Shown in pieces: positions 1,460 to 54,599 of a stretch of 64,000 nucleotides of DNA. The stretch covers positions 42,056,420 to 42,120,419 of the forward strand of contig CM073321.1 of NCBI GenBank assembly GCA_037043015.1. The letters run 5' to 3'. The first letter of the stretch is position 1. The number at the start of each line of letters is the position of its first letter. This stretch comes from Bryum argenteum (lineage: Eukaryota; Streptophyta; Bryopsida; Bryales; Bryaceae). The position numbers and the translations under genes were made by a program. The notes beneath the pieces are model-generated. The model had not been told where the DNA came from. It made no database searches and saw only the letters and a list, made by a program, of their open reading frames with translations.

Positions 1460-1713
1460 GAGAAAACAATTCAAAGGAGAGGCTCTCTGCATTCTTCAAG
1501 TCCTATGTTCCTGATGGCAATAGCGAAGTCGCGGACCCATAAATATTTAGCGACATGTGGGTGCACACAGGGCTTCGGATGTTGAATGGTGGAGTATGCT
1601 CCTTACACCGCACACGCACAAGCTGGCTGTCGTCACCAAGTACAAGGGAGCAAAGTGCAACCTTCCTGTCAATTTGGAGAACATCATCGACGATGTCGTC
1701 GTCCACAACACGC
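1460..1713 (+). pseudogene. ParB-like family pseudogene, 5' part (split by transposon)
   Basis: The frame opens after a splice-acceptor-like TCATCAG and reads GENNSKERLSAFFKSY, then shifts frame near 1550. From 1557 it stays open into the transposon insertion at 1714. The second half aligns with the minus-strand pseudogene at 56.2-57.0 kb: a shared W-S-x6-T-H motif is followed by L-P-x2-L-D/E. When the element and one 8-bp repeat are left out, the frame continues across the junction (VVVHNT joined to HWISVT at 8202) for about 50 more codons before a TAG. It is therefore the 5' part of the pseudogene at 8202-9375. The molecular role of this N-terminal region is unknown. Confidence 0.6.
1706..1713. 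repeat. 8-bp target-site duplication, left (copy 1)
   Basis: CAACACGC directly precedes the left terminus of the element. The same eight bases directly follow the right terminus at 8194-8201. The match is perfect. Confidence 0.93.
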
Positions 1714-1757
1714 CACGGGTAGATCACTTAATGTATTTTAAAAACAACGTGCGGGCT
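1714..1757. repeat. Left terminal inverted repeat (copy 1)
   Basis: The first 15 bases are a perfect inverted match to the right end. The match then continues imperfectly through an ATTTT block to a shared ACGTGCGG near 1747-1755. Confidence 0.85.
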
Positions 1758-2149
1758 AATATAGAGAGGATTATATTCATTTGAAGTAAAAATTATAAAA
1801 GAATTCCAAATAATGAAGGGCTTATTAAATATAGACAATCTCATTATAAGTAATTTAGATAGACATAAAACATGGGCCATTACTTTTTTGTAAATTTAAT
1901 ATAGGGTGGAAAGATAAGGATCTTAGAAGGTTTCATTAGTATGCTGTGTAAATAGGTTAGGACTCACGGAAATGGTTTATTAGTCTAAAAATGGATGAAT
2001 TAGGTAAAGCGTCGCTATTGGAGTTGTCTTCCTTGCGCCAATTTGCAAATGGCTAGGGTTTGCTTTGCCTTTTCGGCTGCTTGTTTGGAGGTTGGAGTGT
2101 GGTGATCGTGTTTTAGCTGAGCGCGTGCAAGTGTGCATCTAATTGGGCT

Positions 2150-5100
2150 GTGAAAGGTCGAGTTATGGCAATCCAAGTGAAGATATGGACAATGGAGGAG
2201 GAATGTGCTGTGCCGCAATATTACAGCAAAATCAAGGTATTGGAGGAGGAAACATATGCGTCTCTTAGGGTTCGTTTGGAAGAGAAATCTGCGTTGGAGT
2301 GGCCATTTCAATTTTGGGACAGTGAAGAGAAGTGTAGAATCCGAGAGAAGATGGAGGGTTTGAACGATGTAACAAGTGATGTGTATGTGCTGCCCTTGCG
2401 ATGTGAAGTCAAGGAGGCCTCTAAACGGCGTCGTCTTGATGATGGGATTCATGTAGCAGATCGGGGTCTTCAAGAAGTGGCCAATTTCCCGGAAAGTGAA
2501 GAAGACATCGATAACCATCCTCTTGAGCCTCTTGGAAGCTGCGGGGTTGCGGGTTCCAACGGGAATACGGAAGCTTTGGAGCACCAAGTTGATTCCACCT
2601 TAATATCCAAAGACGTTTGGGAGCGATACCTTGATCATGCAGAGAAGATGAAAAGGGATCTTAAGTGCTCTTCCCAGGAGGACAATCGGTGGGTGTTGAA
2701 GTCTTGGGACTTTAATGGTAATAGTGTAGTGAAGATATTCTGCATCGAATGCCGGAAGGAGATTGGAGGGGACAGTGGAAAGCACGACAAGACCAACATT
2801 CAAAATTTGTTCAACAATTTCAAAGCAAAGCATTTGGTGAGTACAAACCATGTGAAGAATTGGTGTGTGAAGAATGACGTTCCTTATGCAGATCATCCAC
2901 AATCTACAGCACCTAAGGGGAAGTCCGTTCATATGACTCCGGAGATGCACCAAAAACTCATTGACGAGGGTGTTGAAATTATGGAGGAAGTGAACAAGAG
3001 TATGAATGGTGCACAAAAACCTTTCACGGTCCTTGGTACATTTAGGAGAGCCGCCCAAGAGCTTTTGGATGAAGGTGAAATGCTTTTATTGCAGAGACTT
3101 GCTAAGCTTGTGTCCCCCAAAGAAGAACTTGGAATGGAATTTGAAGCATCACTTGGCATCTGCAAAGCACTTGCAAGCAATAGAACAATCAAAGGCTCTT
3201 TCTAAAGGTCCAACTGCAATTCTTAGTGGAAAGAGAGGAAGGCCAGCGCTATCATCTGGGGCTAGTGTACACTCAAACCAACCTGATCTTGGAAGGTGGT
3301 GGAAGACTTCCGCTACTACCGAGATGGAAGGAAGTAAGGCATCTAACTTTGACCACAATCCGTGTTTGCGTTTGATGTGTTGGGGCTTTAGGGGTCCGGT
3401 TTATAAATACTACGTGGTGTGTTGTATTCGGTTCGTGAGTTGCTTAATGATCCATGTGGGAAGGGTTTGGTATGCGAACCCCACCTTACAAACATGTGTG
3501 AATATCGATGGAGGCTCTATCAATATTAATGGTACTTTTAGGCATGTGTCATGTTTGAGGGTGGATCCATCTGGAATTGGTTTTTGTGGTCTTGTTTGCT
3601 CTATGTGCGCTACAATCCCATTAGAGAATGATTTCAAAAAGAGAGTCTTACGTGAAGAACGTAACCTTGACAAAAGGGGGACTCGAAGCACCGGGGGGGA
3701 GGGAGAAGGATTGGATACCTACAAATTTCTGAACTTGCCAAGCATAGTCGTGAGCTCAATAGAAAACTAAAAGCTGAGAGATTCTTGCACTTGGCAGCTC
3801 GTGCTAGAATTGTTCAACTTAAGGTCAAACGTCCAACTCTACGAGAACTAGCAAGAGAGGCTTCGTTAGAGCATAATGTCATAAAGTTTTGCACTAGTAT
3901 CATCAATGCTCATAGGTCAGGGGCATTTGGAAGGAAGCCGGCACTATGGAACTTTCTTAGCGATATAGCGCAGAATGTGAATAGGAATGCTAGAGGGAAC
4001 CGTTACAGTGAAAGTACCAAGTGTTTAGGGGAAGTGATGAAGGTATATGGAGGACGAAGGATGATAGATATTTTTTCTTTGAATTTTGCGGGTCCAAGTT
4101 ACAGTCAAGTGAAGCGGGATCTAAGTAAAGGTGTGCAGTTTATACCTGGTGAACACGTCGAGATTTTTGCGGCAGTTGCACAAATATATAGAGATGCTAA
4201 AGTGGCGCATAATATTCTCGGTCCAGTTCCAGTTATTCTTGCAGAGGATGAAACTAAAGTGAAAGGGAGAGTAGCTTGGGAACCTAAGCGGGATACTCTT
4301 GCTGGATTTTGTGGGCCTTCAGAGAATCATGTATGTATCTCCGGTTTTAGACCTGTTGTTGGATGTGGTGAAGATGGGTACCGTCAAATAGTAGAGTCGT
4401 TCACGAGGAACACTAAAGGGAGTTTTGCCCGTGTAGTTGTTGTGAATCCTTTGCATGATAAACTTCCCCGCCTTGTTTTAGTTGCATGTTGCACTTGTAA
4501 TTGTTTCAAATCTGATTGGGTTAGAAATCAATGGGAAGTTATAGACAAGCTCTGGAAGAGGGATTGTTTTGCCGCTGTGGGTCCAATAGTGGGGCACGCT
4601 AGCGATGGTGATTCCCGTAGGAGACAATTGATGCTTGCAGATTTTAGGAGCATAGAAGGAAATCGTCTTGACATTGGGTGGGAAGGGTGGATGTTCTCCG
4701 CATCTTTAGATAATAATGGGGATGCGAAGGGCCTCCACGACCATGATTATCTACATAATGGTAAAAAATTGATCAATCCTTTGCTTTCAGCTTCAAAGAT
4801 TTTACAGTTGGGAGGAGACTTGTGTCTCCATAGTCACATAGAGCTAGTATTCCAACAATTTGAGAACGATGATCACGGATTAAAAATGGAGGATGTTGAT
4901 AGGAAAGATCGTCAAAACTGGGGAGCTGCACAAAGATTGTGCCAAGCCAAGGTAAGGTCTTGTTTGGCACGTATGCGTGACGGAGACTATCCTTGTAGAG
5001 AAAGAACACTTGGGACTGACTACTATTTAGAGATTTGCGCAAACTACATTGACATTTTTTGTTCACCTAGATTAGATCTTCGTTCCAGGATTGTGTTGTG

Positions 5101-6693
5101 TGGAAAGGTCTCATTTTTCTTTCGAATTTGGAGATTATGGTTTCAAAATGGAGATCATGGGGTATTGGGAAATTCACAAAAACTCATCGAGGCTAAAAGT
5201 TTTGTTAGTCAACAATGTTTTTTGGATATTCAGTTATCATGTCATTTTGTGGTTCTTTTAATTTGTCATTTCAGAGATAGGTACCCGGAGTTAGCCGTTC
5301 CACTTCATTTGACTGGCAGTGACTCGTGTGAGGTGTTCTTTTCAAAAATTGGGGGCATGAATGGGCATGAGCGTGCATATGACTTCCACGAATTGTTGAA
5401 CACTGCCAACACTCTAAACCATATTTCTGCGGTGGAATACGGGAAGAATGGTTTAGGATTCAAAAAGCAACATAATAAGATGGAGAATGTTTGGGAAGCG
5501 CTGCACAAGCTTCAACCTGGAGAAGAGCGATGCAATTTGGGCGACTATAGTTTAATATCTTCAAATGCTGAGGTGATAAGTGCGCTAAAGGAGGGATTGA
5601 AGGAGGCCCATGCATTATTCAGGCCTCTTAATATGGCTCCAAGTGTTCAATGCCCAGCACACAAAAAAAATTGGTATGAGAAGCCGTGGGTAGTTGAAAG
5701 AGCCGACCCAAAAAGCTTTGCTTACAAACCTAGCTTAAGGCCGGAATCAGGGGAAGATGGCGACTCAGAGGTATTGCGAGACCGGTTGCATACAGAAGTG
5801 TTGGCCTCCGTGGGTATTGTAGAAGACACCCAGATGAGGGATTCAATAGAAGAAGAGGTCGTGGACGATGGTTTGCAACATATCGCCTTATTGGAAGAAG
5901 AGACCCGTGATGTCATAACGGAACTATTGAACCAAGTAGAGAATCAAGTGACACTTGTGCACGGTGCCAAGAAGATAATGCCAACCGTAGAAGTTGGTGG
6001 CCATTCTATTTACAAATCGACACTTGTATCACAGTTGAATGGGAATGTTTTTCTTTCCAAAGATAGATTGGCAAGAATTAAACATAGCATTCAATTCAAT
6101 AACCATGATAATTGTCTCCAAGCAGAATATTCATGTGGGTCAAGTCTGTTATGTATAGGATCAGATTGTGGAGTGCATTTTGTCCAACGAATCACGACAA
6201 GGTTATCTTCAACAGTAAGATCTGCTGCCAAACGAAAAAGGGGACGTTCAAGTACTGCTAATAAAGCTGGAAATGCTACTAACATATTGAACGGAGTAGA
6301 TGAGGGGTCATGGTGGGTGGGCAGGGTGCAGGCTATGCGACGTCGCAATGGGAAACAATTTGGAGTACTAAGGCAAGCAGTTGACCTCCTTGCCCGAACA
6401 GAGGAATCAGGGAAGAGAAATCCTAACAACCCTCATATTGAAGTGATGTTGCAATATTATAGAAAACATCCGGGCCGTGATAAGTTTAAATATGATCACA
6501 CAGATAGTCAGTGGATTGATATAGATTGTGTTATATCTATTGTCACTATGAGCTACAATTCTACAAACGAAGTATACACTCTTGACAAGAATGATTTGAG
6601 CTGACTTTCCAAGTTTGTCAGGCATCAAGTATATAGGATTGAGTACCTAGTTTGCATCATCAACTTCGACTGCTTCATACAATGTAAGTATTC
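2150..6693 (+). pseudogene. Transposase of the 6.5-kb element, copy 1 (frame-broken)
   Basis: One intron-less reading region is split into three overlapping frames: 2150-3205, 3006-3770 and 3785-6604. The N-terminal third has two zinc-finger-like motifs. One is C-x2-C near 2742 followed by H-x5-H near 2830-2850. The other is C-x2-C near 3083-3094 followed by a His pair near 3140-3170. The central part shows a possible RNase-H-type core: an acidic EDE run at 4244-4252, SDGDSRRR with Asp at 4604, an HDHDYLHNGKK block near 4735-4770, and SCEVFFSKIGG with Glu near 5330. That order and spacing recall P-element/THAP9-like transposases. The breaks look artefactual or recent. Copy 2 is open across the first two: a 2-nt difference near 3050, and a G-run of 7 versus 5 near 3702. 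The TGA at 6602 is CAG in copy 2, where the protein runs on about 30 residues. Intact length would be near 1,500 residues. Confidence 0.8.
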
Positions 6694-7290
6694 AACATGC
6701 ACGATGCTTCATACAATGTAAATATTCAATATGCACCATGTTAGAGTTTTGACATTGTTACCATTTTTTATAAGAACAATTATTTGATTGATCAAGAATA
6801 CATTATAAGTATTCAATATGCACCATGTAAGAGTTAAGACATTGTTGTTTTATAAAAACAATTATATGATTGATCAAGAATCTTGATATATGTCACGTGT
6901 TTGTCGTCATCGTAAGGTTTTGGAAACATGGAGCACCAAGTAAGTAATGAAAGAAGCGCCTTTGTTGAGTGTTGGAGGCGTAGTAGAGAAAGTGAAAGAG
7001 ATCTCGCTTGGAAGCGTGATGAAATGGCAAAAGATTGTGCATGACAATGTAAGTATCCAACATGCACCATGTAAGAGTTAAGACATTGTTATTTTATAAG
7101 AACAATTATATGGTTGATGAAGAATCTTGATATATGTCACATGTTTTTCGTCATCATAAGGTTTTGAAAACATGGACCACGAAGCAAGCATTGGAAGGGC
7201 GGCACAGTTGGGCTTTGGAGGCGCGGTAGAGAAAGTGGAAGAAATACAGCTTGGAGGCGTGACGAAATGACAAAAAATTGTGCATGTTGC
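6680..7290. repeat. Tandem repeats of about 243 bp in transposon 3' region
   Basis: Units begin with a GTAAGTATTCAA(C/T)ATGCACCATG block at about 6684 (short), 6805 and 7049. The two long units share the run from this block through a conserved AAGAATCTTGATATATGTCAC to a segment ending GATTGTGCATG. No coding function is apparent. They may be subterminal transposase-binding repeats or simple internal expansion. Confidence 0.75.
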
Positions 7291-7749
7291 TAAGGGTAGA
7301 AGTACTAGACTTGTAAACCGCTCCCCGTGGTTGTTTATATTCGATGTGTTTGTGATCATTTTATATACCACATGTTGTGTTTGTAAACGCAGAGACATTT
7401 TTCTTCCGTTTCCACTCTTATCCCATTTGTGGTGTACTTGGGGTTATTTTGTATTTCTTGTCATAGTGTGGGCTAGATTGTAAATTCTAAAACCTGCTTG
7501 ATGTGTTTAAGGTCATATCTTTTAAATAAATTCATTATTCATGAGGTTATTGGGGTTTATGATGTTACTTTGTGAAATAACACGTTTTGCTGTGTTTTGT
7601 TGTGAATAGACACTTTATTCATGCCGGCCTCGAAAGAGGACTGGAGTTCATATCATCAATTTATTTAGTGTCACTTGCACAACAATGTATGAATTGGTAT
7701 GTTTGCTAGCATCATTTTATTTATGTTCATGATTACTTGTTTGCAATTG

Positions 7750-7930
7750 TATGACTCCAAAGGGTTTTGGCTATTACCTTGTTTGCAGTGGTTTTGTTTG
7801 CACACTCCTTTCTCCAACGGGTTTTGTCTATTACTTTGTTCGTAGTGGTTTTTTTGTTTGCACACTCCTTTCTCCAAAGGGTTTTGTCTATTACCTTGTT
7901 TGGAGTGGTTTTTTTGTTTGCACACTCATT
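7750..7930. repeat. Three 60-bp tandem repeats in transposon
   Basis: Three head-to-tail units of about 60 bp are present, each with GGGTTTTG, CTATTAC, CTTGTTTG and TTTGCACACTC blocks. They are open in several frames only because of low complexity and are not treated as coding. The same array is present in copy 2 at about 31910-32090. Confidence 0.85.
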
Positions 7931-8148
7931 TGTTTCCATGTTTTCTCTCAACACTTGTCATTTTGCTTATGCTTTTAAATTAGTTTTAATTACTTAAAAG
8001 GAATATAGAGTACAAAAAATTGTATTGACTTGGACAATATAAGTAATGAAAGGGTGCAAACAAATGGGCCATTTTTGAAATTTAAGTAATTATAGGGAGG
8101 CTTTAATAAGGCCCTAGAAGGTAAATAGCCCCAAAACAAAAAACCTCC

Positions 8149-8201
8149 AGCCGCACGTGGTGCACAAAAATGCCTTAGAGTGATCTACCCGTGCAACACG
8201 C
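8149..8201. repeat. Right terminal inverted repeat and target duplication (copy 1)
   Basis: 8149-8193 mirrors the left end: perfect for 15 bases, then imperfect to the shared CCGCACGT block. CAACACGC at 8194-8201 is the right target-site duplication. Confidence 0.88.
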
Positions 8202-9375
8202 ACTGGATCTCCGTGACGTGCATCATGGACAACCCCACTCAAGACACGACTTCTGACCAAGACTACCGATTCACTTACATGATCGATACTATGAAGATTG
8301 CATTTGTCATTTGGGCTCATGTCGAGAGTATAAAAAAATCTTAGTACGATCCCTTGGCAAAAAATGTCGGGCAACACATTTGCGAATTCCGATTCACAAC
8401 CGAGCTTGGTAACCAGCAGCCCCCAAGTATTCTCGCCCCTCGTCTCTGATCACTGGTCACTGCCATGGTGAACTTCAAGGCAAAGCTGCAACGCAAGAAG
8501 ATGCAAATGCAACCCCTTCGTCTAACGCAGGAAGTAAGCATGGACAGTGGCAGCTATGAGTCGATTCTATATCAGACTCCTGAGGCGACGGGATCAAAGA
8601 GGCGCAAGGCGAATTCGTCCCAAGCACAACGGGGGTCGACACCAAAGAAGATCAAATCAGTCACAACGAAGAAGTCGACCCTGGCCGATTCCATGGAGAT
8701 TGATCAGGCGAGCCTAGTATCAACCTTGACAGACGTCCCAATCGACAGTGTAGAGAAAGTTGTCGATTACAAAGAGTCCATGAATGTCTTCAAGAACTAC
8801 TAGGCTATTTGCCAGGACTCTTACATCTTCGGCTCAGATGTCACTTCCAAGATTCCAATTGAGCGTCTCTTTACCCCCTCCCCGCCGACCTGAACATCTG
8901 GAACCTCGAGCAGGAAAAAGTCAAGCACACAATAAGATAAGATGTGCGATAAGGAGAAGAAGAACACCCTCTGCGTCTTCCCGGAGAATAAGCTTGTAAA
9001 ACCCCAATCTTGGCAGGAGATACAGGACGGGGAGTTCCACATGGTCAATGGACAACAATGTGTCTAGGCCTCCAAGCAGTTGCAAAACAGGCTAGATGTA
9101 GATGTGAAGATTAGGGACGCTTTTAAGGCCTGGGACTGCTTCGTAGTATGGAATGAAGATAAGTCCATCATTCGGAGAATCTCCGCGTTCTACAACAGGG
9201 TCAACCACTTTATGCATACATATCCAATGTGGGCGAGAAACATCATCGCGGCGCGAGAGCTGTAGGAAAGCCTCGGTAGACTGGAGAATCCAAAGGAGGC
9301 TACTGAGGTTGGCAAGACCGTCGCACAGAAGGCCTCGACCGGTAGGAAATCAGCTAAGGACGCGTCCAATTTATG
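8202..9375 (+). pseudogene. ParB-like (NGQ motif) pseudogene, 3' part
   Basis: This continues the frame broken by the transposon. It runs through a basic, Ser/Thr-rich segment (8465-8800) into FKNY-stop-AICQDSYIFG, a region with HMVNGQ near 9035-9055, and KIRDAFKAWDCFVVW near 9110-9150. The same blocks, in the same order, occur in the minus-strand pseudogene at 55.6-57.2 kb (KDYR-stop-NSADCYVFG, IINGQHHVEAAKQL, KIVALRTWKAHVVW). The NGQHH-AA pattern after an SL-x-S-x-Q-x3-I-x-MP run resembles the ParB/sulfiredoxin fold signature (GQHR/GEHR). In-frame stops are numerous (for example 8802, 8890, about 8938, 9066, 9263), mainly TAG and TGA, so this copy is dead. ParB-like assignment is by motif only. 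Confidence 0.6.
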
Positions 9376-11293: not shown

Positions 11294-12297
11294 ATGGAAG
11301 ACACTAGTCCGATGAGTCCGTTTCATGGTGAGCCAGGTAACACGGCGCAAGATGATCACAATGAAGGTCACATTCCGGATTCAATCTTGCTCGAGGTTCA
11401 CATTCCTCTTCCATCCTCGACCACTGTACGAGATTCACAAACAGCTGAAATCCAATCAGAGACGTCGGTAAGCTGTTCATATTCCAAAATCTCATTTTCA
11501 TTCAATCCTTTCTTTATGAGTTCCGTGTGATCGCATTGTTTGGATTTGGGATTTCTTAGTGTTATAGCAATGGTCAGTCTCGAAATGTGGCAGTGCAGTA
11601 CTTAACTGTCTACACATTTGTTTGCCCCCCTTCTAAATAGGAGATGAGTCATTCGCACAGTCCCGTAGTTGCAGCCGTGGAGGATGTCCCTCGTTCTATT
11701 CCTTCAAGGGTGCCATGCAAGTGGCTCAATGTCATCCTGGACTTGAACGGTATTTGCCGTGTCTGCAAGGAGAAGAGATTTATGCCAAAGGACCAAGTTT
11801 ACAACATGGTCGCAAGTGCACATTCCTCTGTCCTACCCGCTCTGATTGGTCCCAAGGCCGTTTTCGTTTGGCCCTTCTGCCTTGAATTTCTTCGTGAGTT
11901 GAGTGAAGTTGCATACGTCTTCGTATGGAGTTCGATGGTTCATGCGACCACGAAGTCCATATGTGACTACTTGTTCCGGGGTGTGCCATCCCCGTACCTT
12001 GTTTGGGGGCGGAACTCATGTAAGGTTGTCAAGGTTCGTGGACCGCGGAATAAGTTGTCCAACTTCAAGTTGAACGGGACTAATAAGGATCTTTTCCTCA
12101 AACCACTGGATATGCTTTTCAATGGTCTAAACTCAAAGTTTAATGAGCATGACACAATCATCATCGACGTTAGCCGTGAGAAGCACGTTGTGAATGAACC
12201 AGAGACTGTCGTACTGCTAGTCTCGTGGTCCGAGCATGATGTATCTGACAGATTCTTGGTGGACGAGCTCCTCCCTTGGATTCAACGTCTACATTAA
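11294..12297 (+). CDS. FCP1/SCP-like phosphatase-domain protein, altered catalytic motif
   Basis: Two exons are predicted: 11294-11467 (donor GTAAGC) and 11641-12297 (acceptor AAATAG), phase 0, about 276 residues. The second exon has the FCP1-homology pattern in order. LDLNGIC stands at the DxDGT site, followed by FVWPFCLEFLRELS, YVFVWSS, a KDLFLKPL block, TIIIDVSREKHVVN-EPE, and a terminal FLVDELLPWIQRL. This family dephosphorylates Ser/Thr, classically on the RNA polymerase II C-terminal tail. Here the second catalytic Asp of DxDG is Asn (D-L-N-G), and the usual Thr/Val is Ile, so catalysis is doubtful. Low-complexity sequence precedes the domain. The start at 11294 is a guess. An open, charged segment after the stop (12330-12435) may belong to an alternative 3' end. 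Confidence 0.6.
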
Positions 12298-24281: not shown

Positions 24282-27200
24282 CTATCCGTCAAAGTTGGAA
24301 GCAACTTTAAGTCCAGCCTTGTAGCAAATACGTTGAAAATGATTACGGGGAAGCGGCTTCGTAAGAATATCGGCTAGTTGCTCCTGCGTTGATACACATG
24401 TGAGCACGATCTCCCCATCTTGCTGAGCATCACGAATTTTGTGGAACTTCGTGGCAATGTGCTTAGTACGTTGATGAAAGACAGGGTTCTGCACAAGACG
24501 TATAGCAGCCTGATTGTCACTAAAGAGCTTGGTCGGGTGGAGCTGAGGAAACCGAATGCTTGCGAGAAGGCGTCGCATCCAAATGACTTCCTGAGAAGCA
24601 AGCGAAGCAGCTACATATTCCGATTCTGTTGTACTGCCAGCGGTACATGTTTGCTTGCGGCTGCCCCATGCAATCGCTCTTCCATTAAGCATGAGAAGAA
24701 ACCCATAGCGGAACTTGCGGTCATCAATGTCAGCGGCATAATCTGCATCGCAATATGACGAAAGCTGATGCATGTTTTGCAGCTTGCCTGGCCCATATGT
24801 GATGGGCATTCCCAATGTACGCGTACGTATTTAAGAATTCGCTTTACAGCTGAGACATGAGTTGCATTTGGACGACTACAAAATTTAGCAGCGTTACTTA
24901 CTGCATAGCTGATGTCAAATCTAGTGCTGAGAGCCGCAAACTAGAGACACCCAATACACTCGCGATAGGGCCACGTAACCATGTCTTCTACACTACTCCC
25001 ATCAGACATCACAAGCTCAGTTGCACTACTTGGATCAGCAGGTACAACTACAGCATTAGAATTCTCATGTCCAAATCAAAGAAGCACGCTTTCCAAGTAC
25101 CGGCGTTGATCAAGGTGAATCAACTTCTGATCACAGTCACGAGTAATATGTAAACCCACAAAGATCTCAGCCAATCCTTTGGTGATCACAAACGCGCCTT
25201 CCATGTAGTTGAATATATCAACAATGGTATCATGCTTGGCACCGCAACAAATCCCATCATCGACCCAAATGGCAATAATCAATTTAGGATCACACTTATT
25301 GACATAAACGCAACTATCAGCATCGGAGACGAGAAGATCATACGCGTGCAGAAAGTTGTCGAATTTCTTATTCCACACCCTAGGTGACTGTTTCAGCCCA
25401 TATAGTGCTTTCTTGAGACGGCAGACTTTGTCAAGTGCCAAAGGATCCTCAAAACCCAAAGGTTGCTTCATAAATATTGTTTCTTCAATTTTTCCATAAA
25501 GAAACGTTGTACGCACATCAAACTATCCAATGTGCAGATCTTCGGCAGCTGCAACAGATAAAATGGTGCGTATTGAGTCGAATTTAACCACAGGGCTAAA
25601 AGTATCCTTATAGTCGAGTCCTTCACGCTGAGTATATCCTTTTGCACACAACCTGGCTTTGTATCTGGCTACGGAGCCATCCGATGCAAGCTTAAGCTTG
25701 TAGACCCATTTATTCTGCACTGTTTTCCTATCACTGGGCAAAGACTCCAAACTCCAAGTCTCATTGATCAAGAGCGATTCAAATTCAATATGCATTGCCT
25801 TCATCCATTGTGCTTTCTGTGGTGAGGACATCGCTTCTTCGAAAGTCGTCGGTTCCACAGGTAGTTCCATCCCTTCGATGACAGTCGCCATACATGAATA
25901 AGAGTTGTTAATAATGTAGATCCAATCACCGTACCGTGAAGGGGGATTGCGTTGTCTCGGTGCAATGACTGGCACTGGAACTTCTTCAATGTTGTGATGC
26001 GAATCATCATCGGAATCGTGATTCAGGTTCTCTTCCTGAGTAAGAGTTGTTCCAACGTCTTGTTGAGAATCATTGGAATCAAGAGGTGACTGTGTCATTG
26101 GGACAGGTACGTTAACAACTCCCACTGGTGCAAGACCATCCGATGGAGCAATATTTCCCACTCTCAACATGTTACCAGAATAAGTGAGCCACTCCGTACT
26201 CCCACTCGTCCCTTTCGTTGTGAGATCTTCATGGAAGACTACATCTCGACTTTCCTCTATACGCCGTAGATCAAGATTCCACACTCGATAAGCCTTACTT
26301 GTTAGAGAGTATTCCATGAATATACCTTTTTGGCTCTTTGCATGAAGTTTCTTCCGGAGTTCCTTGGGAACATGAACGTATGCATCACAGCCAAAAACTC
26401 GAAGATGTGCGACGGACGGCTTCTTTTTATACCACAATTCATAAAGTGTATGGCCATTGATAGTACAAGTGGCAGTACGATTTAGTGTATACACCGCTGT
26501 ATGAGCCGCCTCTGCCCAAAACGTATGAGCGATGTTACTAGTATGGAGGATCGTCCGCACAGCCTCAACAATCGTCCTATTGTCACGCTCTGAGACTCCG
26601 TTTTGCTCCGGCGTAAATGGAGTAGTTAACTCTTGCTTGATGTTTTTGTCTCCCAAGAATTGGCGAAAAACACCACTAGTGAACTCTGTGCCTCGATCGC
26701 TACGGATAATTTTGACTGTATAGCCAGTTTCACGCAATAGCTGGGCTACAAACCGCTTGAACGCTTGAATGGTTTGGGGTTTTGTTTTCAAACATTCAAT
26801 GACCCTAAAACTAGTGCTATCATTTTTAAAGAAGGCAAAATATAAGGCCCTTCCAATTGAAGGGGTAGACATCGGGCCGCATAAATCAGTGTGGATGAGG
26901 TCTCCAGGTGCTTTGGAGCATTCCTTGTCATTATTATGTGGGAACACATTTCGCTGTTGTTTCCCGTACACACAACCAAGGCAGAAGCTTTGCTCTCGTT
27001 GAGTGATCACCACACTATCAACAAGTCCTTGTGTGGCCATCTCTTGTACCGTTGCATGATTGGTATGTGAAAAACGACGGTGCCGAATGTCGTGTGACTG
27101 ACGAGCTTCGGTTGTCGTTGGTATACCAAAAGATGCGGCCAAAACCATTGCTAATGGTGCAAGTTCATCGTCAACGACTTCAATCAAAAGGCGATACATC

Positions 27201-28408
27201 TTATTTTGTATGACCCCTGTCATAACAATCTTGCCATTCTCTAACATCTGACAGCCGGTATCTGTTTGTAGTGTGAAAATCTTTCGCTGAGCCGCAACGT
27301 ATGATGAAAAAAGATTGCGTCCTAAGTTGGGCACATAGAGGACATCTTTCAAAATACCAAATGTGAAAGTATCCGAGTGCTGAATCCGAATGATAATATC
27401 GCCAACACCAGTAGCATGGAGCTGAATGCCTCCGATGCCTTCGACAGAACTATTAAGAGTACAATAAGTAGAAAAGAAATGTCGGTTGTATGTCATGTGC
27501 GCGGTGCAACCACTATCCATGTACCAACATGATGGTAGATACATATCGTTATCAAGAAATGCCGTGTAAGCCTTATAGGTGTTTGTGTTAGAGGTGCGCT
27601 GCTCACTTACAGTCTTGTGCTTCGATTCTTGATGCTTACGTTGTTCTTCTTCAAAAGCAGCACATTCACGACCCCAATGGCCTTTCTTGCCGCACTTCAA
27701 ACACGCAGTGATTTTCTTTCGATCAAGAATCTCCTTCCTCCTAGCTTCACGTTGGTCTGCGGAATATTCAGGTTTGGCCTTCGTAGTAGCAGCATATGCT
27801 TGTGCTGATGCAATGATCGCATCTGTCTTCATCTTGAGAGTTCCTTCGGTTTGAAGAAGCTGGAGAGTCAGGTTTGCTAAAGACTTGGACGTGGTAGGTT
27901 GCATGCGCCATGCAGGGATTATAGAATCAAATGCCTCAGGAAGATTGCTAAGAATCTTGGACACTACGGCTTGCTCATTGAAAGTGTTATCGCCTCGACT
28001 AGCTAGTTGTGACACTATAAGCTCAATCTTGCCAAGAAAGTCAGCAATACTCTCTCCTTCTTCCATGACACATTTATAGAACTCTTGTTGCAACGTGTGA
28101 ATATTTTCCGATGCATTTTGCTCATGGATGAGCTTCAGTTTGTCCCAAATCTCTTTGGACTTGGTACAAGATATAATATGCTTAAGCATGGACTCATCAA
28201 GCACTTGACATAAGAGACTAAATGCTTGACTATCACGTTTTATCCACTCAGAACGTAGAGCGGGATCAGATGGTTGGACTGACGTACCATCAATAATGTC
28301 CATAAGCTCCTTTCCAAGGAGGATGGCACGCATTTGGAATTTCCATAAATGAAAATTAGCGCCCTTAAAGCGCGCTATGCTTCCAAGTTCACGAGTATTA
28401 TTCGCCAT
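24282..28408 (-). pseudogene. Copia gag-pol polyprotein (interrupted)
   Basis: One long frame from 28408 encodes all copia domains in order: gag with LWKFQMRAIL and a CCHC zinc knuckle (CLKCGKKGHWGREC, near 27680), protease with MDSGCTAHMT (near 27510), integrase with an HHCC finger and catalytic blocks (DLCGP, IRSDRGTEF, GVSERDNRTI) and reverse transcriptase from KWVYKLK. It meets a TAG at 25523-25525 just before FDVRTTFLYG. It continues in frame to a TGA at 25076 (LESVLL-stop-FGHENSN) and a TAG near 24940, then shifts frame near 24830. The RNase H part follows (YCDADYAADIDDRK, DNQAAI, HIATKFH, ADILTKPLP) and ends at 24282. The RT active site reads WVDD instead of YVDD. Non-functional as it stands. 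Confidence 0.92.
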
Positions 28409-31637: not shown

Positions 31638-31645
31638 GGCCATCT
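31638..31645. repeat. 8-bp target-site duplication, copy 2 (left)
   Basis: GGCCATCT adjoins the element; AGCCATCT follows the other end at 38119-38126. Seven of eight bases agree. Confidence 0.8.
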
Positions 31646-31909
31646 CACGGGTAGATCACTCTAAGGCATTTTTGTGCACCACGTGCGGCTGGAGGTTTTT
31701 TGTTTTGGGGCTATTTACCTTCTAGGGCCTTATTAAAGCCTCCCTATAATTACTTAAATTTCAAAAATGGCCCATTTGTTTGCACCCTTTCATTACTTAT
31801 ATTGTCCAAGTCAATACAATTTTTTGTACTCTATATTCCTTTTAAGTAATTAAAACTAATTTAAAAGCATAAGCAAAATGACAAGTGTTGAGAGAAAACA
31901 TGGAAACAA

Positions 31910-32090
31910 ATGAGTGTGCAAACAAAAAAACCACTCCAAACAAGGTAATAGACAAAACCCTTTGGAGAAAGGAGTGTGCAAACAAAAAAACCACTACGAA
32001 CAAAGTAATAGACAAAACCCGTTGGAGAAAGGAGTGTGCAAACAAAACCACTGCAAACAAGGTAATAGCCAAAACCCTTTGGAGTCATAC
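31910..32090. repeat. Three 60-bp tandem repeats (copy 2)
   Basis: Reverse complement of the array at 7750-7930, identical in unit number. Confidence 0.85.
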
Positions 32091-33150
32091 AATTGCAAAC
32101 AAGTAATCATGAACATAAATAAAATGATGCTAGCAAACATACCAATTCATACATTGTTGTGCAAGTGACACTAAATAAATTGATGATATGAACTCCAGTC
32201 CTCTTTCGAGGCCGGCATGAATAAAGTGTCTATTCACAACAAAACACAGCAAAACGTGTTATTTCACAAAGTAACATCATAAACCCCAATAACCTCATGA
32301 ATAATGAATTTATTTAAAAGATATGACCTTAAACACATCAAGCAGGTTTTAGAATTTACAATCTAGCCCACACTATGACAAGAAATACAAAATAACCCCA
32401 AGTACACCACAAATGGGATAAGAGTGGAAACGGAAGAAAAATGTCTCTGCGTTTACAAACACAACATGTGGTATATAAAATGATCACAAACACATCGAAT
32501 ATAAACAACCACGGGGAGCGGTTTACAAGTCTAGTACTTCTACCCTTAGCAACATGCACAATTTTTTGTCATTTCGTCACGCCTCCAAGCTGTATTTCTT
32601 CCACTTTCTCTACCGCGCCTCCAAAGCCCAACTGTGCCGCCCTTCCAATGCTTGCTTCGTGGTCCATGTTTTCAAAACCTTATGATGACGAAAAACATGT
32701 GACATATATCAAGATTCTTCATCAACCATATAATTGTTCTTATAAAATAACAATGTCTTAACTCTTACATGGTGCATGTTGGATACTTACATTGTCATGC
32801 ACAATCTTTTGCCATTTCATCACGCTTCCAAGCAGTATCTCTTTCACTTTCTCTACTACGCCTCCAACACTCAACAGTGCCGCTCTTTCATTACTTACTT
32901 GGTGCTCCATGTTTCCAAAACCCTTACGATGACGACAAACACGTGACATATATCAAGATTCTTGATCAATCATATAATTGTTTTTATAAAACAACAATGT
33001 CTTAACTCTTACATGGTGCATATTGAATACTTATAATGTATTCTTGATCAATCAAATAATTGTTCTTATAAAAATGGTAACAATGTCAAAACTCTAACAT
33101 GGTGCATATTGAATATTTACATTGTATGAAGCATCGTGCATGTTGAATAC

Positions 33151-36100
33151 TTACATTGTATGAAGCAAATCGAAGTTGATGATGCAAACTAGGTACTCAA
33201 TCCTATATACTTGATGCGTGACAAACTTGGAAAGCTGCTCTGAATCATTCTTGTCAAGAGTGTATACTTCGTTTGTAGAATTGTAGCTCATAGTGACAAT
33301 AGATATAACACAATCTATATCAATCCACTGACTATCTGTGTGATCATATTTAAACTTATCACGGCCCGGATGTTTTCTATAATATTGCAACATCACTTCA
33401 ATATGAGGGTTGTTAGGATTTCTCTTCCCTGATTCCTCTGTTCGGGCAAGGAGGTCAACTGCTTGCCTTAGTACTCCAAATTGTTTCCCATTGCGACGTC
33501 GCATAGCCTGCACCCTGCCCACCCACCATGACCCCTCATCTACTCCGTTCAATATGTTAGTAGCATTTCCACTTTATTAGCGAGACTTGAACGTCCCTTT
33601 TTCGTTTGGCGCAGATCTTCATTGTTGAAGATAACCTTGTCGTGATTCGTTGGACAAAATGCACTCCACAATCTCGATCCTATACATATGAGACTTGACC
33701 CACATGAATATTTCGCTTGGAGACAATTATCATGGTTATTGAATTGAATGCTATGTTTAATTCTTGCCAATCTATCTTTGGAAAGAAAAACATTCCCATT
33801 CAACTGTGATACAAGTGTCGATTTGTAAATAGAATGGCCACCAACTTCTACGGTTGGCATTATCTTCTTGGCACCGTGCACAAGTGTCACTTGATTCTCT
33901 ACTTGGTTCAATAGTTCCGTTATGACATCACGGGTCTCTTCTTCCAATAAGGCGATATGTTGCAAACCATCGTCCACGACCTCTTCTTCTATTGAATCCC
34001 TCATCTGGGTGTCTTCTACAATACCCACGGAGGCCAACACTTCTGTATGCAACCGGTCTCGCAATACCTCTGAGTCGCCATCTTCCCCTGATTCCGGCCT
34101 TAAGCTAGGTTTGTAAGCAAAGCTTTTTGGGTCGGCTCTTTCAACTACCCACGGCTTCTCATACCAATTTTTTTTGTGTGCTGGGCATTGAACACTTGGA
34201 GCCATATTAAGAGGCCTGAATAATGCATGGGCCTCCTTCAATCCCTCCTTTAGCGCACTTATCACCTCAGCATTTGAAGATATTAAACTATAGTCGCCCA
34301 AATTGCATCGCTCTTCTCCAGGTTGAAGCTTGTGCAGCGCTTCCCAAACATTCTCCATCTTATTATGTTGCTTTTTGAATCCTAAACCATTCTTCCCGTA
34401 TTCCACCGCAGAAATATGGTTTAGAGTGTTGGCAGTGTTCAACAATTCGTGGAAGTCATATGCACGCTCATGCCCATTCATGCCCCCAATTTTTGAAAAG
34501 AACACCTCACACGAGTCACTGCCAGTCAAATGAAGTGGAACGGCTAACTCCGGGTACCTATCTCTGAAATGACAAATTAAAAGAACCACAAAATGACATG
34601 ATAACTGAATATCCAAAAAACATTGTTGACTAACAAAACTTTTAGCCTCGATGAGTTTTTGTGAATTTCCCAATACCCCATGATCTCCATTTTGAAACCA
34701 TAATCTCCAAATTCGAAAGAAAAATGAGACCTTTCCACACAACACAATCCTGGAACGAAGATCTAATCTAGGTGAACAAAAATGTCAATGTAGTTTGCGC
34801 AAATCTCTAAATAGTAGTCGAGTCCCAAGTGTTCTTTCTCTACAAGGATAGTCTCCGTCACGCATACGTGCCAAACAAGACCTTACCTTGGCTTGGCACA
34901 ATCTTTGTGCAGCTCCCCAGTTTTGACGATCTTTCCTATCAACATCCTCCATTTTTAATCCGTGATCATCGTTCTCAAATTGTTGGAATACTAGCTCTAT
35001 GTGACTATGGAGACACAAGTCTCCTCCCAACTGTAAAATCTTTGAAGCTGAAAGCAAAGGATTGATCAATTTTTTACCATTATGTAGATAATCATGGTCG
35101 TGGAGGCCCTTCGCATCCCCATTATTATCTAAAGATGCGGAGAACATCCACCCTTCCCACCCAATGTCAAGACGATTTCCTTCTATGCTCCTAAAATCTG
35201 CAAGCATCAATTGTCTCCTACGGGAATCACCATCGCTAGCGTGCCCCACTATTGGACCCACAGCGGCAAAACAATCCCTCTTCCAGAGCTTGTCTATAAC
35301 TTCCCATTGATTTCTAACCCAATCAGATTTGAAACAATTACAAGTGCAACATGCAACTAAAACAAGGCGGGGAAGTTTATCATGCAAAGGATTCACAACA
35401 ACTACACGGGCAAAACTCCCTTTAGTGTTCCTCGTGAACGACTCTACTATTTGACGGTACCCATCTTCACCACATCCAACAACAGGTCTAAAACCGGAGA
35501 TACATACATGATTCTCTGAAGGCCCACAAAATCCAGCAAGAGTATCCCGCTTAGGTTCCCAAGCTACTCTCCCTTTCACTTTAGTTTCATCCTCTGCAAG
35601 AATAATCGAACGGACCGAGAATATTATGCGCCACTTTAGCATCTCTATATATTTGTGCAATCGCCGCAAAAATCTCGACGTGTTCACCGGTATAAACCGC
35701 ACACCTTTACTTAGATCCCGCTTCACTTGATCGTAACTTGACCCGCAAAATTCAAAGAAAAATATCTATCATCCTTCGTCCTCCATATACCTTCATCACT
35801 TCCCCTAAACACTTGGTACTTTCACTGTAACGGTTCCCTCTAGCATTCCTATTCACATTCTGCGCTATATCGCTAAGAAAGTTCCATAGTGCCGGCTTCC
35901 TTCCAAATGCCCCTGACCTATGAGCATTGATGATACTAGTGCAAAACTTTATGACATTATGCTCTAACGAAGCCTCTCTTGCTAGTTCTCGTAGAGTTGG
36001 ACGTTTGACCTTAAGTTGAACAATTCTAGCACGAGCTGCCAAGTGCAAGAATCTCTCAGCTTTTAGTTTTCTATTGAGCTCACGACTATGCTTGGCAAGT

Positions 36101-37682
36101 TCAGAAATTTGTAGGTATCCAATCCTTCTCCCTCCCCCGGTGCTTCGAGTCCCCCTTTTGTCAAGGTTACGTTCTTCACGTAAGACTCTCTTTTTGAAAT
36201 CATTCTCTAATGGGATTGTAGCGCACATAGAGCAAACAAGACCACAAAAACCAATTCCAGATGGATCCACCCTCAAACATGACACATGCCTAAAAGTACC
36301 ATTAATATTGATAGAGCCTCCATCGATATTCACACATGCTGTAAGGTGGGGTTCGGCATACCAAACCCTTCCCACATGTGGATCATTAAGCAACTCACGA
36401 ACCGAATACAACACACCAGAGTATTTATAAACCGGACCCCTAAAGCCCCAACACATCAAACGCAAACACGGATTGTGGTCAAAGTTAGATGCCTTACTTC
36501 CTTCCATCTCGGTAGTAGCGGAAGTCTTCCACCACCTTCCAAGATCAGGTTGGTTTGAGTGTACACTAGCCCCAGATGATAGCGCTGGCCTTCCTCTCTT
36601 TCCACTAAGAATTGCAGTTGGACCTTTAGAAAGAGCCTTTGATTGTTCTATTGCTTGCAAGTGCTTTGCAGATGCCAAGTGATGCTTCAAATTCCATTCC
36701 AAGTTCTTCTTTGGGGGACACAAGCTTAGCAAGTCTCTGCAATAAAAGCATTTCACCTTCATCCAAAAGCTCTTCGGGGCAGACTCCCTAAATGTACCAA
36801 GGACCGTGAAAGGTTTTTGTGCACCATTCATACTCTTGTTCACTTCCTCCATAATTTCAACACCCTCGTCAATGAGTTTTTGGTGCATCTCCGGAGTCAT
36901 ATGAACGGACTTCCCCTTAGGTGCTGTAGATTGTGGATGATCTGCATAAGGAACGTCATTCTTCACACACCAATTCTTCACATGGTTTGTACTCACCAAA
37001 TGCTTTGCTTTGAAATTGTTGAACAAATTTTGAATGTTGGTCTTGTCGTGCTTTCACTGTCCCCTCCAATCTCCTTCCGGCATTCGATGCAGAATATCTT
37101 CACTACACTATTACCATTAAAGTCCCAAGACTTCAACACCCACCGATTGTCCTCCTGGGAAGAGCACTTAAGATCCCTTTTCATCTTCTCTGCATGATCA
37201 AGGTATCGCTCCCAAACGTCTTTGGATATTAAGGTGGAATCAACTTGGTGCTCCAAAGCTTCCGTATTCCCGTTGGAACCTGCAACCCCAGAGCTTCCAA
37301 GAGGCTCAAGAGGATGGTTATCGATGTCTTCTTCACTTTCCGGGAAATTGGCCACTTCTTGAAGACCCCGATCTGCTACATGAATCCCATCATCAAGACG
37401 ACGCCGTTTAGAGGCCTCCTTGACTTCACATCGCAAGGGCAGCACATACACATCACTTGTTACATCGTTCAAACCCTCCATCTTCTCTCGGATTCTACAC
37501 TTCTCTTCACTGTCCCAAAATTGAAATGGCCACTCCAACGCAGATTTCTCTTCCAAACGAACCCTAAGAGACGCATATGTTTCCTCCTCCAATACCTTGA
37601 TTTTGTTGTAATATTGCGGCACAGCACATTCCTCCTCCATTGTCCATATCTTCACTTGGATTGCCATAACTCGACCTTTCAC
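33151..37682 (-). pseudogene. Transposase of the 6.5-kb element, copy 2 (frame-broken)
   Basis: Same protein as 2150-6693, in five pieces: 37682-36993, 37026-35752, 35726-34785, 34745-33549 and 33552-33151. The piece 37026-35752 is open across both N-terminal breaks of copy 1, through the second zinc-finger-like motif (CFYCRDLL then NLKHHLASAKHL) into LAARARIVQLKVKRPTL. Conversely copy 1 is open where copy 2 breaks. The break near 37064 is a one-base deletion (GTGGAA versus GTGAA). The break near 35745 includes a T-run of 5 versus 6. The candidate catalytic blocks (ILAEDETKVKG, SDGDSRRR, HDHDYLHNGKK, SCEVFFSKIGG) are unchanged. The C-terminus runs to HTM-stop at 33151, about 30 residues past the copy 1 stop. 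Confidence 0.8.
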
Positions 37683-38118
37683 AGCCCAATTAGATGCACA
37701 CTTGCACGCGCTCAGCTAAAACACGATCACCACACTCCAACCTCCAAACAAGCAGCCGAAAAGGCAAAGCAAACCCTAGCCATTTGCAAACTGGCGCAAG
37801 GAAGACAACTCCAATGGCGACGCTTTACCTAATTCATCCATTTTTAGACTAATAAACCATTTCCGTGAGTCCTAACCTATTTACACAGCATACTAATGAA
37901 ACCTTCTAAGATCCTTATCTTTCCACCCTATATTAAATTTACAAAAAAGTAATGGCCCATGTTTTATGTCTATCTAAATTACTTATAATGAGATTGTCTA
38001 TATTTAATAAGCCCTTCATTATTTGGAATTCTTTTATAATTTTTACTTCAAATGAATATAATCCTCTCTATATTAGCCCGCACGTTGTTTTTAAAATACA
38101 TTAAGTGATCTACCCGTG

Positions 38119-38126
38119 AGCCATCT
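38119..38126. repeat. 8-bp target-site duplication, copy 2 (right)
   Basis: AGCCATCT, one mismatch to GGCCATCT at 31638-31645. Confidence 0.8.
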
Positions 38127-50994: not shown

Positions 50995-52590
50995 TCAAGC
51001 ATTAGAATATTCAACTATAGTATCGTGAATGACTTTAATTTGATCCACTGGAATTTTCAAAGTGCACTCGGTTGTATCCTTCTTGACCTTTGACTTCCAT
51101 GAAGTCATCAATGAAGCTGTATTCTCCCACAAAGGAGGTTGAGTATCGTCAACCTTCCAACGCAATCCTTTGACCGAATTCCATCCATTGTAGGTCTCTT
51201 GCACATCTCGATCCCTTGATGCAGGCCGAAAGAATTGAATAAGGATGCAATTTGGCTGCTCGGGGTTTATGTTCGGATATGACAACGCTCGAGCAATCCA
51301 CACCGGTCGTGAGTCACCATCAGCTGGCCGAATAGCAAGAAAGTATCCTTCATAAACATCACGAGCTACACGAAAAGATGGTTGAGGGCGATCTCGGATC
51401 TCTCCAACATATGCCTCATCTTCTCCAAACTCCTCACGAAGTTCGCCATCTTCGGCAAATTGGTCCTCCAAAGTCGCATCTATTCTGGACAATGGCCAAA
51501 ATCCGTCCCGAAGAACATTCGATGGTTCAATGGGAACCTCTAGTGCTGCCTTCACAGCCCGCCAATATAACACAAGATGTTCATAGCATCTTCTATACTC
51601 TCCAGTTCTATCTTCATCAGACATTGTCTCCCAGTACTTGATAAATCTAGAAATGCCCTTCACAATGTCCTCCACACTCCTCATTGCACGATGCGTCGTA
51701 GGAGTTGGATCACCACGCGGCCACAAAGAACGACCTTCCGAGTCCTCTCTCCACAACTGAATTCCGGTTGTATCATTTGGCAACCAATCTTCTGCTGTGC
51801 ACGAAACCTTGCACTTCATCACAGGACAACCTGTAGAATCCAAAAAATACTTGAATTGTTGTGCCTTCGTAAGACCAACAAGTGCTTCCCCTCCATCCCT
51901 GATAAACCCATCGATAAATCCTTTAAAATCCGGCACCTCTTCAACAAGGTGGGGGATGGCTGGAATAGATTCCACGTCCATGAAAGATTTTATGAGTAAC
52001 GGAATAGTAGGGAAATTGTCTTTCCTCAACAACATGCTCCACCTCCCAAACATTGCAGCGATGTCATCATGGATATACCCAACCAACATGAAATTGACGT
52101 ATACCTCGCGGAAGATCTTCTTTGCGACAAGGAGAGACCAAAAACAGAATACATATCTATTTTTGTCGTCCCCTGCTGCATTGTCCATCTGAACATTGAG
52201 AATTGGCGGAAGAGGAATCCCTCGAAGTGGAAGAGCTGGTGTCTGGACGGAGTGACGATACGCAAGTCTCCGCACCTTGGAGAACAGCATCAAAGATAGG
52301 TGCCGAACTTGCCGAACAAAAAGCTCACTTGAAGAGTACTTTGGTGGCAACTCTATATCTCGGAGCAGCTTAGCAAAAGAGCCCACCGTGTAATTTGAAT
52401 CGTGTGCGAAAATATCTAGACTGTAATGTGCGTAGCGTACATCTCCGTGGCCATGAGCGATGATTCCTGTGACGGATACTGGTAGCTTCATCAGACCATT
52501 GAGTTCCTTACTCTTGTGAGAAAAGACAAGGGAAGCGGTCTTCGCATGATCCATTTCGTCATGCATAATGTGCACAAGGAGGAGAAGCAT
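50995..52590 (-). CDS. DUF7869-like transposase-related protein, N-terminally truncated
   Basis: Single open frame of 531 residues. The N-terminal half reads HIMHDEMDHAKTA, then GIIAHGHGDVRYAHYSLD and VGSFAKLLRDIE. It then shows ILNVQMDNAAGDDKNRYVF and the FMLVGYIHDDIAAMFGRWS block, which together match the RNase-H-like pattern of DUF7869 proteins (usually D-N-x-K-N and GHTH-x-DID). These proteins are widespread in plants and animals and thought to derive from transposases. Here GHTH has become GYIH and the DID Asp is Ala, so catalysis is unlikely. The family's usual N-terminal part is missing: the frame begins only about 45 bp from the start of the divergently oriented methyltransferase-like gene. 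The frame itself is intact over 1.6 kb, so decay is recent or it is kept. Confidence 0.65.
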   Translation of the reverse strand: MLLLLVHIMHDEMDHAKTASLVFSHKSKELNGLMKLPVSVTGIIAHGHGDVRYAHYSLDIFAHDSNYTVGSFAKLLRDIELPPKYSSSELFVRQVRHLSLMLFSKVRRLAYRHSVQTPALPLRGIPLPPILNVQMDNAAGDDKNRYVFCFWSLLVAKKIFREVYVNFMLVGYIHDDIAAMFGRWSMLLRKDNFPTIPLLIKSFMDVESIPAIPHLVEEVPDFKGFIDGFIRDGGEALVGLTKAQQFKYFLDSTGCPVMKCKVSCTAEDWLPNDTTGIQLWREDSEGRSLWPRGDPTPTTHRAMRSVEDIVKGISRFIKYWETMSDEDRTGEYRRCYEHLVLYWRAVKAALEVPIEPSNVLRDGFWPLSRIDATLEDQFAEDGELREEFGEDEAYVGEIRDRPQPSFRVARDVYEGYFLAIRPADGDSRPVWIARALSYPNINPEQPNCILIQFFRPASRDRDVQETYNGWNSVKGLRWKVDDTQPPLWENTASLMTSWKSKVKKDTTECTLKIPVDQIKVIHDTIVEYSNA

Positions 52591-52634
52591 CTTCTTCGGA
52601 ACCTCGCTTCTAACCCAACTGACTCTGCACCGAT

Positions 52635-54580
52635 GGACATTGACGACAATGACGAAGACAACCTCTCCATTTTACCAGTCGCACTTGATCCAATCTCTTC
52701 TCCTTCTTCACCTGATGCAGTGCCCAAGTCTCGTGCAAACAGGAAGCGACGCCACGCTGTTGCAGAGGCAATTGTAGATCTTGAGCAAGAATCCGAAGAA
52801 AATGCTCCCCTCTCAGAAGACATTGCAAGGCCTGAAGATGCTGATCTGACTCAGGCTTCAGCGGGAGCCGCAAACAATACAATTCGACGCGGTGCAAGAT
52901 TGACTCAACTTTCTACAGGTGGACTTACGAATGCTGGGTCCCCACCTCACTCATTCACCGTTGACCACAATTCGCAGCAGTCCCCACGACGCCTCAGCCA
53001 GCCAATATTTGCCAGACGTCCTCTTCCGAAACCCAATCACATTAGTAGCAGCTCGTCGTCGAAAATATCAGTCACTCGGCCAATGTATCTGGAGAAGGGA
53101 AACATTGGAGATTTAGTTCACCAGTCATCGAAGACTGCAAAATGGGATTCGCAAATCCTAGATATCGTCGAGCACATCAAGAAGGTATTATTTCATACAT
53201 TTGTTATTCAAAATCTCCCTTATTACGTTTTGTACTTGTAAATCTATAAGCCACTTTCTAATTTTTGACTTGTATCTCAGATTAGAAAAAACCGTAAGTA
53301 CCCGTGCTCGGCGATGGAGTATGAACCCAAGCATCCAGGGATTGATTCCATTTTTGCAGATGCTTCCGAGAACTTGCCTGTACCGGGTGTGTCTCCAACA
53401 GAAATTCCATCCTGGAACCGGCGTGACAAAACCTACTTTGAGAGCCTCTTCGTGTTTGCCGCGTATCATTTGACAGATGTTGGAGCCATTCTTCTGATGC
53501 ATCCAAAATGTCGTAGAATCGAGCGTACTCTTGATTCTGAGTCGCATACACATAGTTTTCGTCTCGTTCGAGACTGGTGGGGGTATAATCCCCTCCCTAT
53601 GGCCTCTATCGTGCCTAAACCAAAAGAGGTACGGACCAGATTCTACTTTCCAATTTCACAATTCATGATTATTGTCTTCTATGTTTTTATGTTAACGTAT
53701 GTATACTTGTGTTTTGCAGACTCACTGCTTCAATATCACAGTGTATGTTCGTAAAAAGTATGTTTCGAAGTTCCAAACTCGGCAAGTGGCACACGCATAT
53801 GCGGGTGTGGCAATCGTACCTGATGAGGAAGACCACCTCTCTAACATTGCAGACAAAGAGACATTGAATTATCGTCCGGATGGTACGCCATGGCGAGGCT
53901 CACGAGAGAAGGACCCCTCTTTCATTCAATGTTTCGTTGATTGTCTCACGGACGAAGGGGGTATTATCTTCGACTGGAGCGCAAGTACAGGTAATGTTTC
54001 TAAAAACTCTACATTAAAATTCGTTTATATATTTTGCATTTCTAATGTGGGCAACTGATTTTTTAGGTGCATCTCTGATTGCTTGTGCGCGCTCCAACCG
54101 ACACCTCATCGCCATGGATCCTGACGAAGAAATCTTTGATGGTGTACTAGCGGATTACAAGAATGGTCCTCCCGGTGATGAAGAAAGTGGAGAATCGGCC
54201 CCTCCCACAGATTATGACTCTGACGAACCGGTCGTGAAGAAGCCACAAAAGTTCATTGCTGTGTAATACCATCTTGTATATTATTTCTAGATTTTTAAAT
54301 TACGCACTTACAAATCGGTAGTATTGACTTTCTTTATACTTTTAGGAACGCAGGTCTGAAAGAGCGATTGACTTGCAACTTTCATCTCTACAAGAGCCCT
54401 CCATCAAAATTCACCCTACCAATGTACGCTGAGCGTCTTGCTCAAGAGTTTGTTCAAGCTCCATCTCCCATTTTGTCTGACACTCTACGTCGACGTTATA
54501 GCAATAGTGTGCTTAAGTTTATAGATTTTGAGGCTGATGAGTGTGATCAGCACTTTAATGGTACTACACCTTCAGCCTAG
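52635..54580 (+). CDS. Beta-class amino-methyltransferase-like protein, 4-5 exons
   Basis: Predicted exons: 52635-53184 (donor GTATTA), 53281-53627, 53721-53990 and 54066 to about 54250, plus a last exon from about 54347 to 54580 whose donor is unclear. The N-terminus is acidic and Ser-rich with a basic KSRANRKRRH patch. The conserved part reads DSIFADASENLP, YFESLFVFAAYHLTDVGAILLMHP, then WRGSREKDPSFIQCFVDCLTDEGGIIFDWSASTGASLIACARSNRHLIAMDPDEEIFDGVL. The last block matches motifs X-I of N6-adenine/N4-cytosine DNA methylases (D-x-F/W-x-G/S-x-T-G then IG-x-D-x-D). The substrate-side block precedes it, the circular order of the beta class. A clear DPPY/W is not seen, FADASENL standing in its place, so activity is doubtful. 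Start chosen at the first Met of the acidic segment; upstream exons may have been lost. Confidence 0.55.
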
Positions 54581-54599
54581 TGTGTGATTTGCTTACTGA

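Follow-up and report, generated by a model that had tools for sequence, protein, structure and literature searches.

The window examined here, 64,000 nucleotides of contig CM073321.1 (positions 42,056,420 to 42,120,419 of the forward strand), carries two copies of a cut-and-paste DNA transposon of a plant-lineage genome, and these probably represent a deep P-related lineage, or a superfamily sister to P, and not a hAT, KDZ or Sola element. The family is recognised by terminal inverted repeats (TIRs) of the form C[A/T/C]CGGG..., by 8-bp target-site duplications (TSDs), by empty sites and by a transposase gene that can be read as a single exon in a relative elsewhere in the genome, L034. Uninterrupted copies measure ~6.5-7.8 kb, and both copies in the window, A and B, are decayed. 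The genome searched comprises 258.8 Mb in 25 contigs. It holds five matches above the cut-off (best E 1e-28) to the SAM domain (PF01698) of LEAFY, a streptophyte gene, and 14 control genomes hold none.

A preliminary description of this DNA had proposed two copies with common termini, each with an imperfect inverted repeat of about 44 bp and its own 8-bp duplication. The common termini are borne out, as the 15-mer CACGGGTAGATCACT occurs at exactly four places in the window, which are both ends of the two copies. With up to two mismatches, 0.07 matches are expected by chance, and chance repeats were ruled out as the source of the termini (0 of 100 shuffles). Identity between the two copies is 99%. 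Copy A has CAACACGC at either side (8/8), and copy B lies between GGCCATCT and AGCCATCT (7/8), so that the duplication is exact for A and imperfect for B, and a scan of duplication lengths from 2 to 12 gave a match solely at 8. The TIR is perfect over 15 bp; what had been described further in amounts to a gapped, imperfect match to ~45 bp that includes an ACGTGC block. This block lies ~34-41 bp inside both termini (window 1747-1752 and 8153-8158), is also present at the 5' end of L034, and is a candidate transposase binding site. The two copies and their non-coding features are:

1706..1713, plus strand: left TSD of copy A (CAACACGC)
1714..8193, plus strand: copy A, 6480 bp
1714..1728, plus strand: left 15-bp TIR of copy A (imperfect extension to ~1758)
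6677..7286, plus strand: internal direct repeats of copy A, non-coding, spacing ~244
7735..7911, plus strand: subterminal direct repeats of copy A, three of ~60 bp
8179..8193, minus strand: right 15-bp TIR of copy A
8194..8201, plus strand: right TSD of copy A
31638..31645, plus strand: TSD of copy B, low-coordinate side (GGCCATCT)
31646..38118, minus strand: copy B, 6473 bp, frame-broken
38119..38126, plus strand: TSD of copy B, high-coordinate side (AGCCATCT, 7/8)

Two more copies of the same subfamily were found in the genome, C on contig C1 and D on C4, together with a sister subfamily (E on C3, F on C4) that has the termini CTCGGGTAGATCACT and ~79% DNA identity. The TSDs of C and F are TATGGTTT and CCTTGTTG, respectively, on both sides, and copy E is flanked by TGTGGGTT and TGTGGGAT. 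Nested insertions of ~18.7, 7.9 and 53 kb split D, E and F, respectively; a giant cargo element, considered for E, D and F (14, 25 and 60 kb), was ruled out because these copies are interrupted by nested insertions. A genome-wide protein search yielded 58 matches on C1-C11, with identities of 37-100% and a single fragment below 47%. They fall into 38 groups, or into 39 loci once an opposite-strand pair on C6 is counted as two. Sixteen further loci and some flanks were fetched, ends being examined at 15 of the 39 loci, and seven more elements have both ends, all with an 8/8 TSD: L034 (ends CCCGGGGGGGGCACT and CTCGGGGGGGGCACT, TSD CAAGAATG), L037 (CTCGGGGGATTCACT, AACACTGT), L039 (TGGCTACT), C3:11435001-11441813 (GAAATTCA), C4:16777755-16785526 (TAATATTG), C8:12748296-12755064 (CCTAGTGT) and a C7 copy around L045 (GCTCCCTG). 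Among the 13 elements with both ends, window copies included, ten have a TSD of 8/8, two of 7/8 and one has none (L036 and L038, each with one recognised end, were left out). The expectation of consistent 8-bp duplications thus holds in 12 of 13 elements, and this TSD length agrees with the P superfamily.

Over 7.3 kb, L034 matches the C7 copy at 98% identity, and the TSDs of the two differ, which demonstrates recent movement. The L034 insertion lies inside repeated sequence, and its joined flank with a single CAAGAATG is intact at four other places (98-100% identity); for copy A, the joined flank occurs element-free at 40 scored places (83-89% identity). Segmental duplication in place of transposition was rejected, given the different flanks, the copies' own TSDs and the empty sites. 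Of the four copies with CACGGG-type termini, A, B and C are confined to a stretch of 112 kb (C1:42058133-42169898), a clustering that suggests local transposition. Copy A itself sits in a repeat (window 1564-1713 and 8202-8351), and all 40 scored element-free places, out of 94 candidates, are on C1; this may mean that the repeat is specific to C1, or it may stem from the limit on scoring.

The transposase had been described as a single exon of about 1,500 residues with two N-terminal zinc-finger-like motifs. This frame is open in neither window copy, being broken into three overlapping pieces in A and into five pieces of at least 100 residues in B, and the description applies instead to one fetched relative, L034, where the full frame is open over 1,502 codons (1,487 from the first ATG). 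Long frames are also present in L035 (1,402) and L038 (1,389), each without one protein end. Both finger-like motifs are present in copy A and kept in relatives, and the gene has been under purifying selection between the subfamilies. The coding features are the following open reading frame (ORF) pieces and motifs:

2150..3205, plus strand: copy A transposase ORF piece 1, N-terminal stretch and finger 1, ATG at 2165
2741..2866, plus strand: zinc-finger-like motif 1, C-x2-C ... H-x5-H-x4-C
3006..3770, plus strand: copy A transposase ORF piece 2, shifted frame
3081..3170, plus strand: zinc-finger-like motif 2, C-x2-C ... H-x5-H
3671..6604, plus strand: copy A transposase ORF piece 3, catalytic core and C-terminus, 977 residues open
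6120..6590, plus strand: predicted BAH-like region at the C-terminus, with approximate limits taken over from the model of L034
33549..37682, minus strand: copy B transposase ORF pieces

Concerning the catalytic core, PMC8230255 (see also PMC7776569) gives as the P signature D230, D303 and E531, an insertion at 339-528 and, downstream of the second Asp, a [C/D](2)H motif (D339). The Drosophila P sequence used for comparison was confirmed against PDB 6p5a, and the proposed equivalents in copy A are:

4247..4249, plus strand: predicted first catalytic Asp (LAEDETK), proposed equivalent of P D230
4604..4606, plus strand: predicted second catalytic Asp (ASDGDS), proposed equivalent of P D303
4745..4756, plus strand: D-x2-H motif (DYLH), proposed equivalent of P D339-x2-H342
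5330..5332, plus strand: predicted catalytic Glu (SDSCEVFF), proposed equivalent of P E531

The D, D, D-x2-H and E are invariant across the eight rows of our alignment A3, window included, and match both the triad and the [C/D](2)H motif of the P superfamily. The surrounding blocks LAEDETKV, GHASDGDSRRR, HD-x-DY-x-H-x-GKK, DRQNW and LTGSD-x-CE-x-FFS show little or no variation, the first residues of LAEDETKV differing in one row and copy E having SDGDSQRR in place of SDGDSRRR. The acidic motifs listed in the preliminary description are therefore kept with small changes, such as HDHDY in the window, which reads HDQDY in the seven other rows. As for the insertion domain, the D528 equivalent (in D-x2-E) is the sole residue that could be placed among the guanosine triphosphate-binding residues listed in PMC7776569. 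We noted the P-like order of motifs before examining the P sequence, yet after the preliminary description had proposed it.

This P/THAP9-like order of acidic residues finds support in several comparisons. With hhalign, the alignment matches P once, not significantly, and this match pairs VILAEDETKVKGRITWESKWDTL with CVLAFDEMKVAAAFEYDSSADIV, the D230 strand. When the motif blocks are slid along P, the catalytic registers rank 1/324, 2/334, 8/335 and 2/327, and 1/23, 2/23, 3/23 and 1/13 among places with the right anchor residue; by score, the first block alone exceeds shuffles (9/3000). Structure comparison of the predicted model with VIA-align puts P as the top match, ~3 Z units above all other compared chains, RAG included.

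The same blocks were also compared with the hAT transposase Hermes, where they rank 384/419, 77/429, 59/430 and 1/422, and 17/17, 9/18, 1/8 and 1/31 among same-residue places (the Hermes fragment was padded in front for block 1). The blocks were hand-chosen on conserved stretches, and on either protein the ranks represent no formal probability; their comparison indicates that the E helix is non-discriminating and that the other three blocks favour P. A hAT element with a divergent, enlarged transposase, which we consider unlikely, would also account for the 8-bp TSDs, the finger-like motifs and a DDE core predicted to hold a long insertion made of helices. The E-helix block is in fact first of the 422 Hermes places at the catalytic Glu, with a score of 9.9 against 5.6 on P, and the CxxH block is first among the eight Hermes cysteines. 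However, the registers of the three other blocks are poor, and none of 12 TSDs fits nTnnnnAn, the hAT consensus. Moreover, Pfam gave no match to hAT, KDZ or THAP models for seven proteins or pieces searched to E<=10, a search in which the HMMER filters drop most matches above ~0.1. The matches that it did give are all below curated cut-offs (the best being Thioredoxin_4 in L038, E 0.0081; DUF7892, E 0.028; SPOC, E 0.097).

Alternatively, the family may be a separate DDE superfamily whose likeness to P arose by convergence on a generic RNase H fold with an insertion, an explanation to which we give a similarly low probability. It would agree with the lack of a significant sequence match to any profile, with the family's own N- and C-terminal domains and with the weakness of the structure model. 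Set against it are the ~3 Z units that separate P from every other compared chain and the D-x2-H and D-x2-E spacings, which agree with P. Single-sequence AlphaFold gave a predicted local distance difference test score (pLDDT) of 34 and led no further. The P-related reading has, for its part, to contend with several results. The hhalign match to P has an E of 0.06-0.13, reached by 11 of 300 shuffles, and for block 3 other places in P score far above the catalytic register. Foldseek found nothing at E<=0.001 in the PDB, and P is not among the best 50 of 202 matches. The N-terminus has other Cys/His patterns where P superfamily members have a THAP domain, and the same Pfam search gave no match to PF21787-PF21789, which we take to be the P-type core models. 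Finally, copy D is flanked by AAATGAGC and GCGGGAGC (4/8), that is, without a duplication.

Still less probable is membership in, or kinship with, the KDZ group (Kyakuja-Dileera-Zisupton), which has very large transposases and is reported from algae, fungi and fish. A transposase of more than 1,000 residues and an 8-bp TSD agree with reports on this group (PMC12477816 and PMC12730594, the latter giving 8-bp TSDs for Zisupton and Dileera), and the absence of a match to the KDZ model PF18758 in the Pfam search speaks against it. A whole-genome search with PF18758 was also empty, but the controls were silent too, so this carries little weight. Sola elements have 4-bp TSDs and are set apart from the present family, with its 8 bp, by TSD length alone. 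Sola1 is a DNA transposon that PMC9033089 lists for the moss Physcomitrella.

Returning to the P-related reading, the enzyme would work like a P-type DD-insert-E cut-and-paste transposase with an 8-bp stagger: strand transfer staggered at 8-bp spacing would give rise to the target duplication, and the BAH-like C-terminus may, speculatively, read chromatin and guide the choice of target. With Drosophila P and THAP9 the family has in common the 8-bp TSD, a predicted D-D-[helical insertion]-E arrangement with an insertion of similar length, the D(2)H after the second D and the D-x2-E at the end of the insertion. It differs from them in the size of the protein (~1,490 residues, against 751 for Drosophila P transposase), in having two zinc-finger-like motifs and no THAP domain, in its BAH-like C-terminus, in its C[A/T/C]CGGG... 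termini and plant-lineage host, and in the lack of significant overall sequence similarity. Because the THAP domain is absent and the sequence similarity is not significant, we do not file the family as a member of P. It may, as a tentative proposal, be a new superfamily sister to P/THAP9 in land plants (probably in a moss), one that moved recently in this genome and whose transposase of ~1,500 residues combines a DD-insert-E core like that of P with two zinc fingers and with a BAH domain that reads chromatin.

No relative was found in scans of IMG/VR and GTDB, in PHROGs (best E 0.061) or in PDB sequence searches (two chance-level matches, E 1.2 and 0.056), and a BFVD fold search gave nothing at E<=0.001. 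A core sequence modelled on animal proteins with similar motifs (QD..H..K, DRQN, CE..F), and composed with the query in view, hit no Pfam family and led to no real relative; its blastp match is biased by that origin and does not count as evidence. The literature search gave no P-type or BAH-bearing plant transposon among the matches listed, and a 2022 review of land-plant transposable elements names, in its excerpted part, six TIR superfamilies (Tc1-Mariner, hAT, Sola, MULE, PIF-Harbinger and CACTA), P being absent there (PMC9033089). A P-like core in the plant lineage, if confirmed, would extend the range over which this enzyme type is known. It would also supply as many as 39 loci that can be aligned to trace where the insertion domain came from, and young copies for activity assays. 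If the transposase does carry a BAH-like domain, chromatin-guided integration becomes directly testable. As no Pfam model recognises the family, annotations may well list its genes as uncharacterised genes of the host.

The nested inserts of 18.7 kb and 53 kb in copies D and F (L022-L024, L027-L032) represent a second, giant element. They have common, imperfectly inverted ends (CGGACGTWGCTACCG...GTGTGAGCG) and a duplication of ~9-10 bp, and align to each other piecewise at 70-82%. One ORF of this element has a SWIM-like CxC...CxH pattern and no Pfam match at E<=0.1. In the window, positions 52568-55590 match the 3' part of the 18.7-kb insert at 86% identity, and adjoining this match, at 50995-52590 on the minus strand, is a 531-residue ORF with a Pfam DUF7869 match (E 2e-35) and an HDD...FGRWS motif, which is possibly another transposase. 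The window also contains a Copia-like polyprotein ORF of 961 residues, named by eye (25523-28408, minus strand), and an ORF with a NIF/FCP1-type phosphatase domain (11644-12297, plus strand; PF03031, E 7.5e-11).

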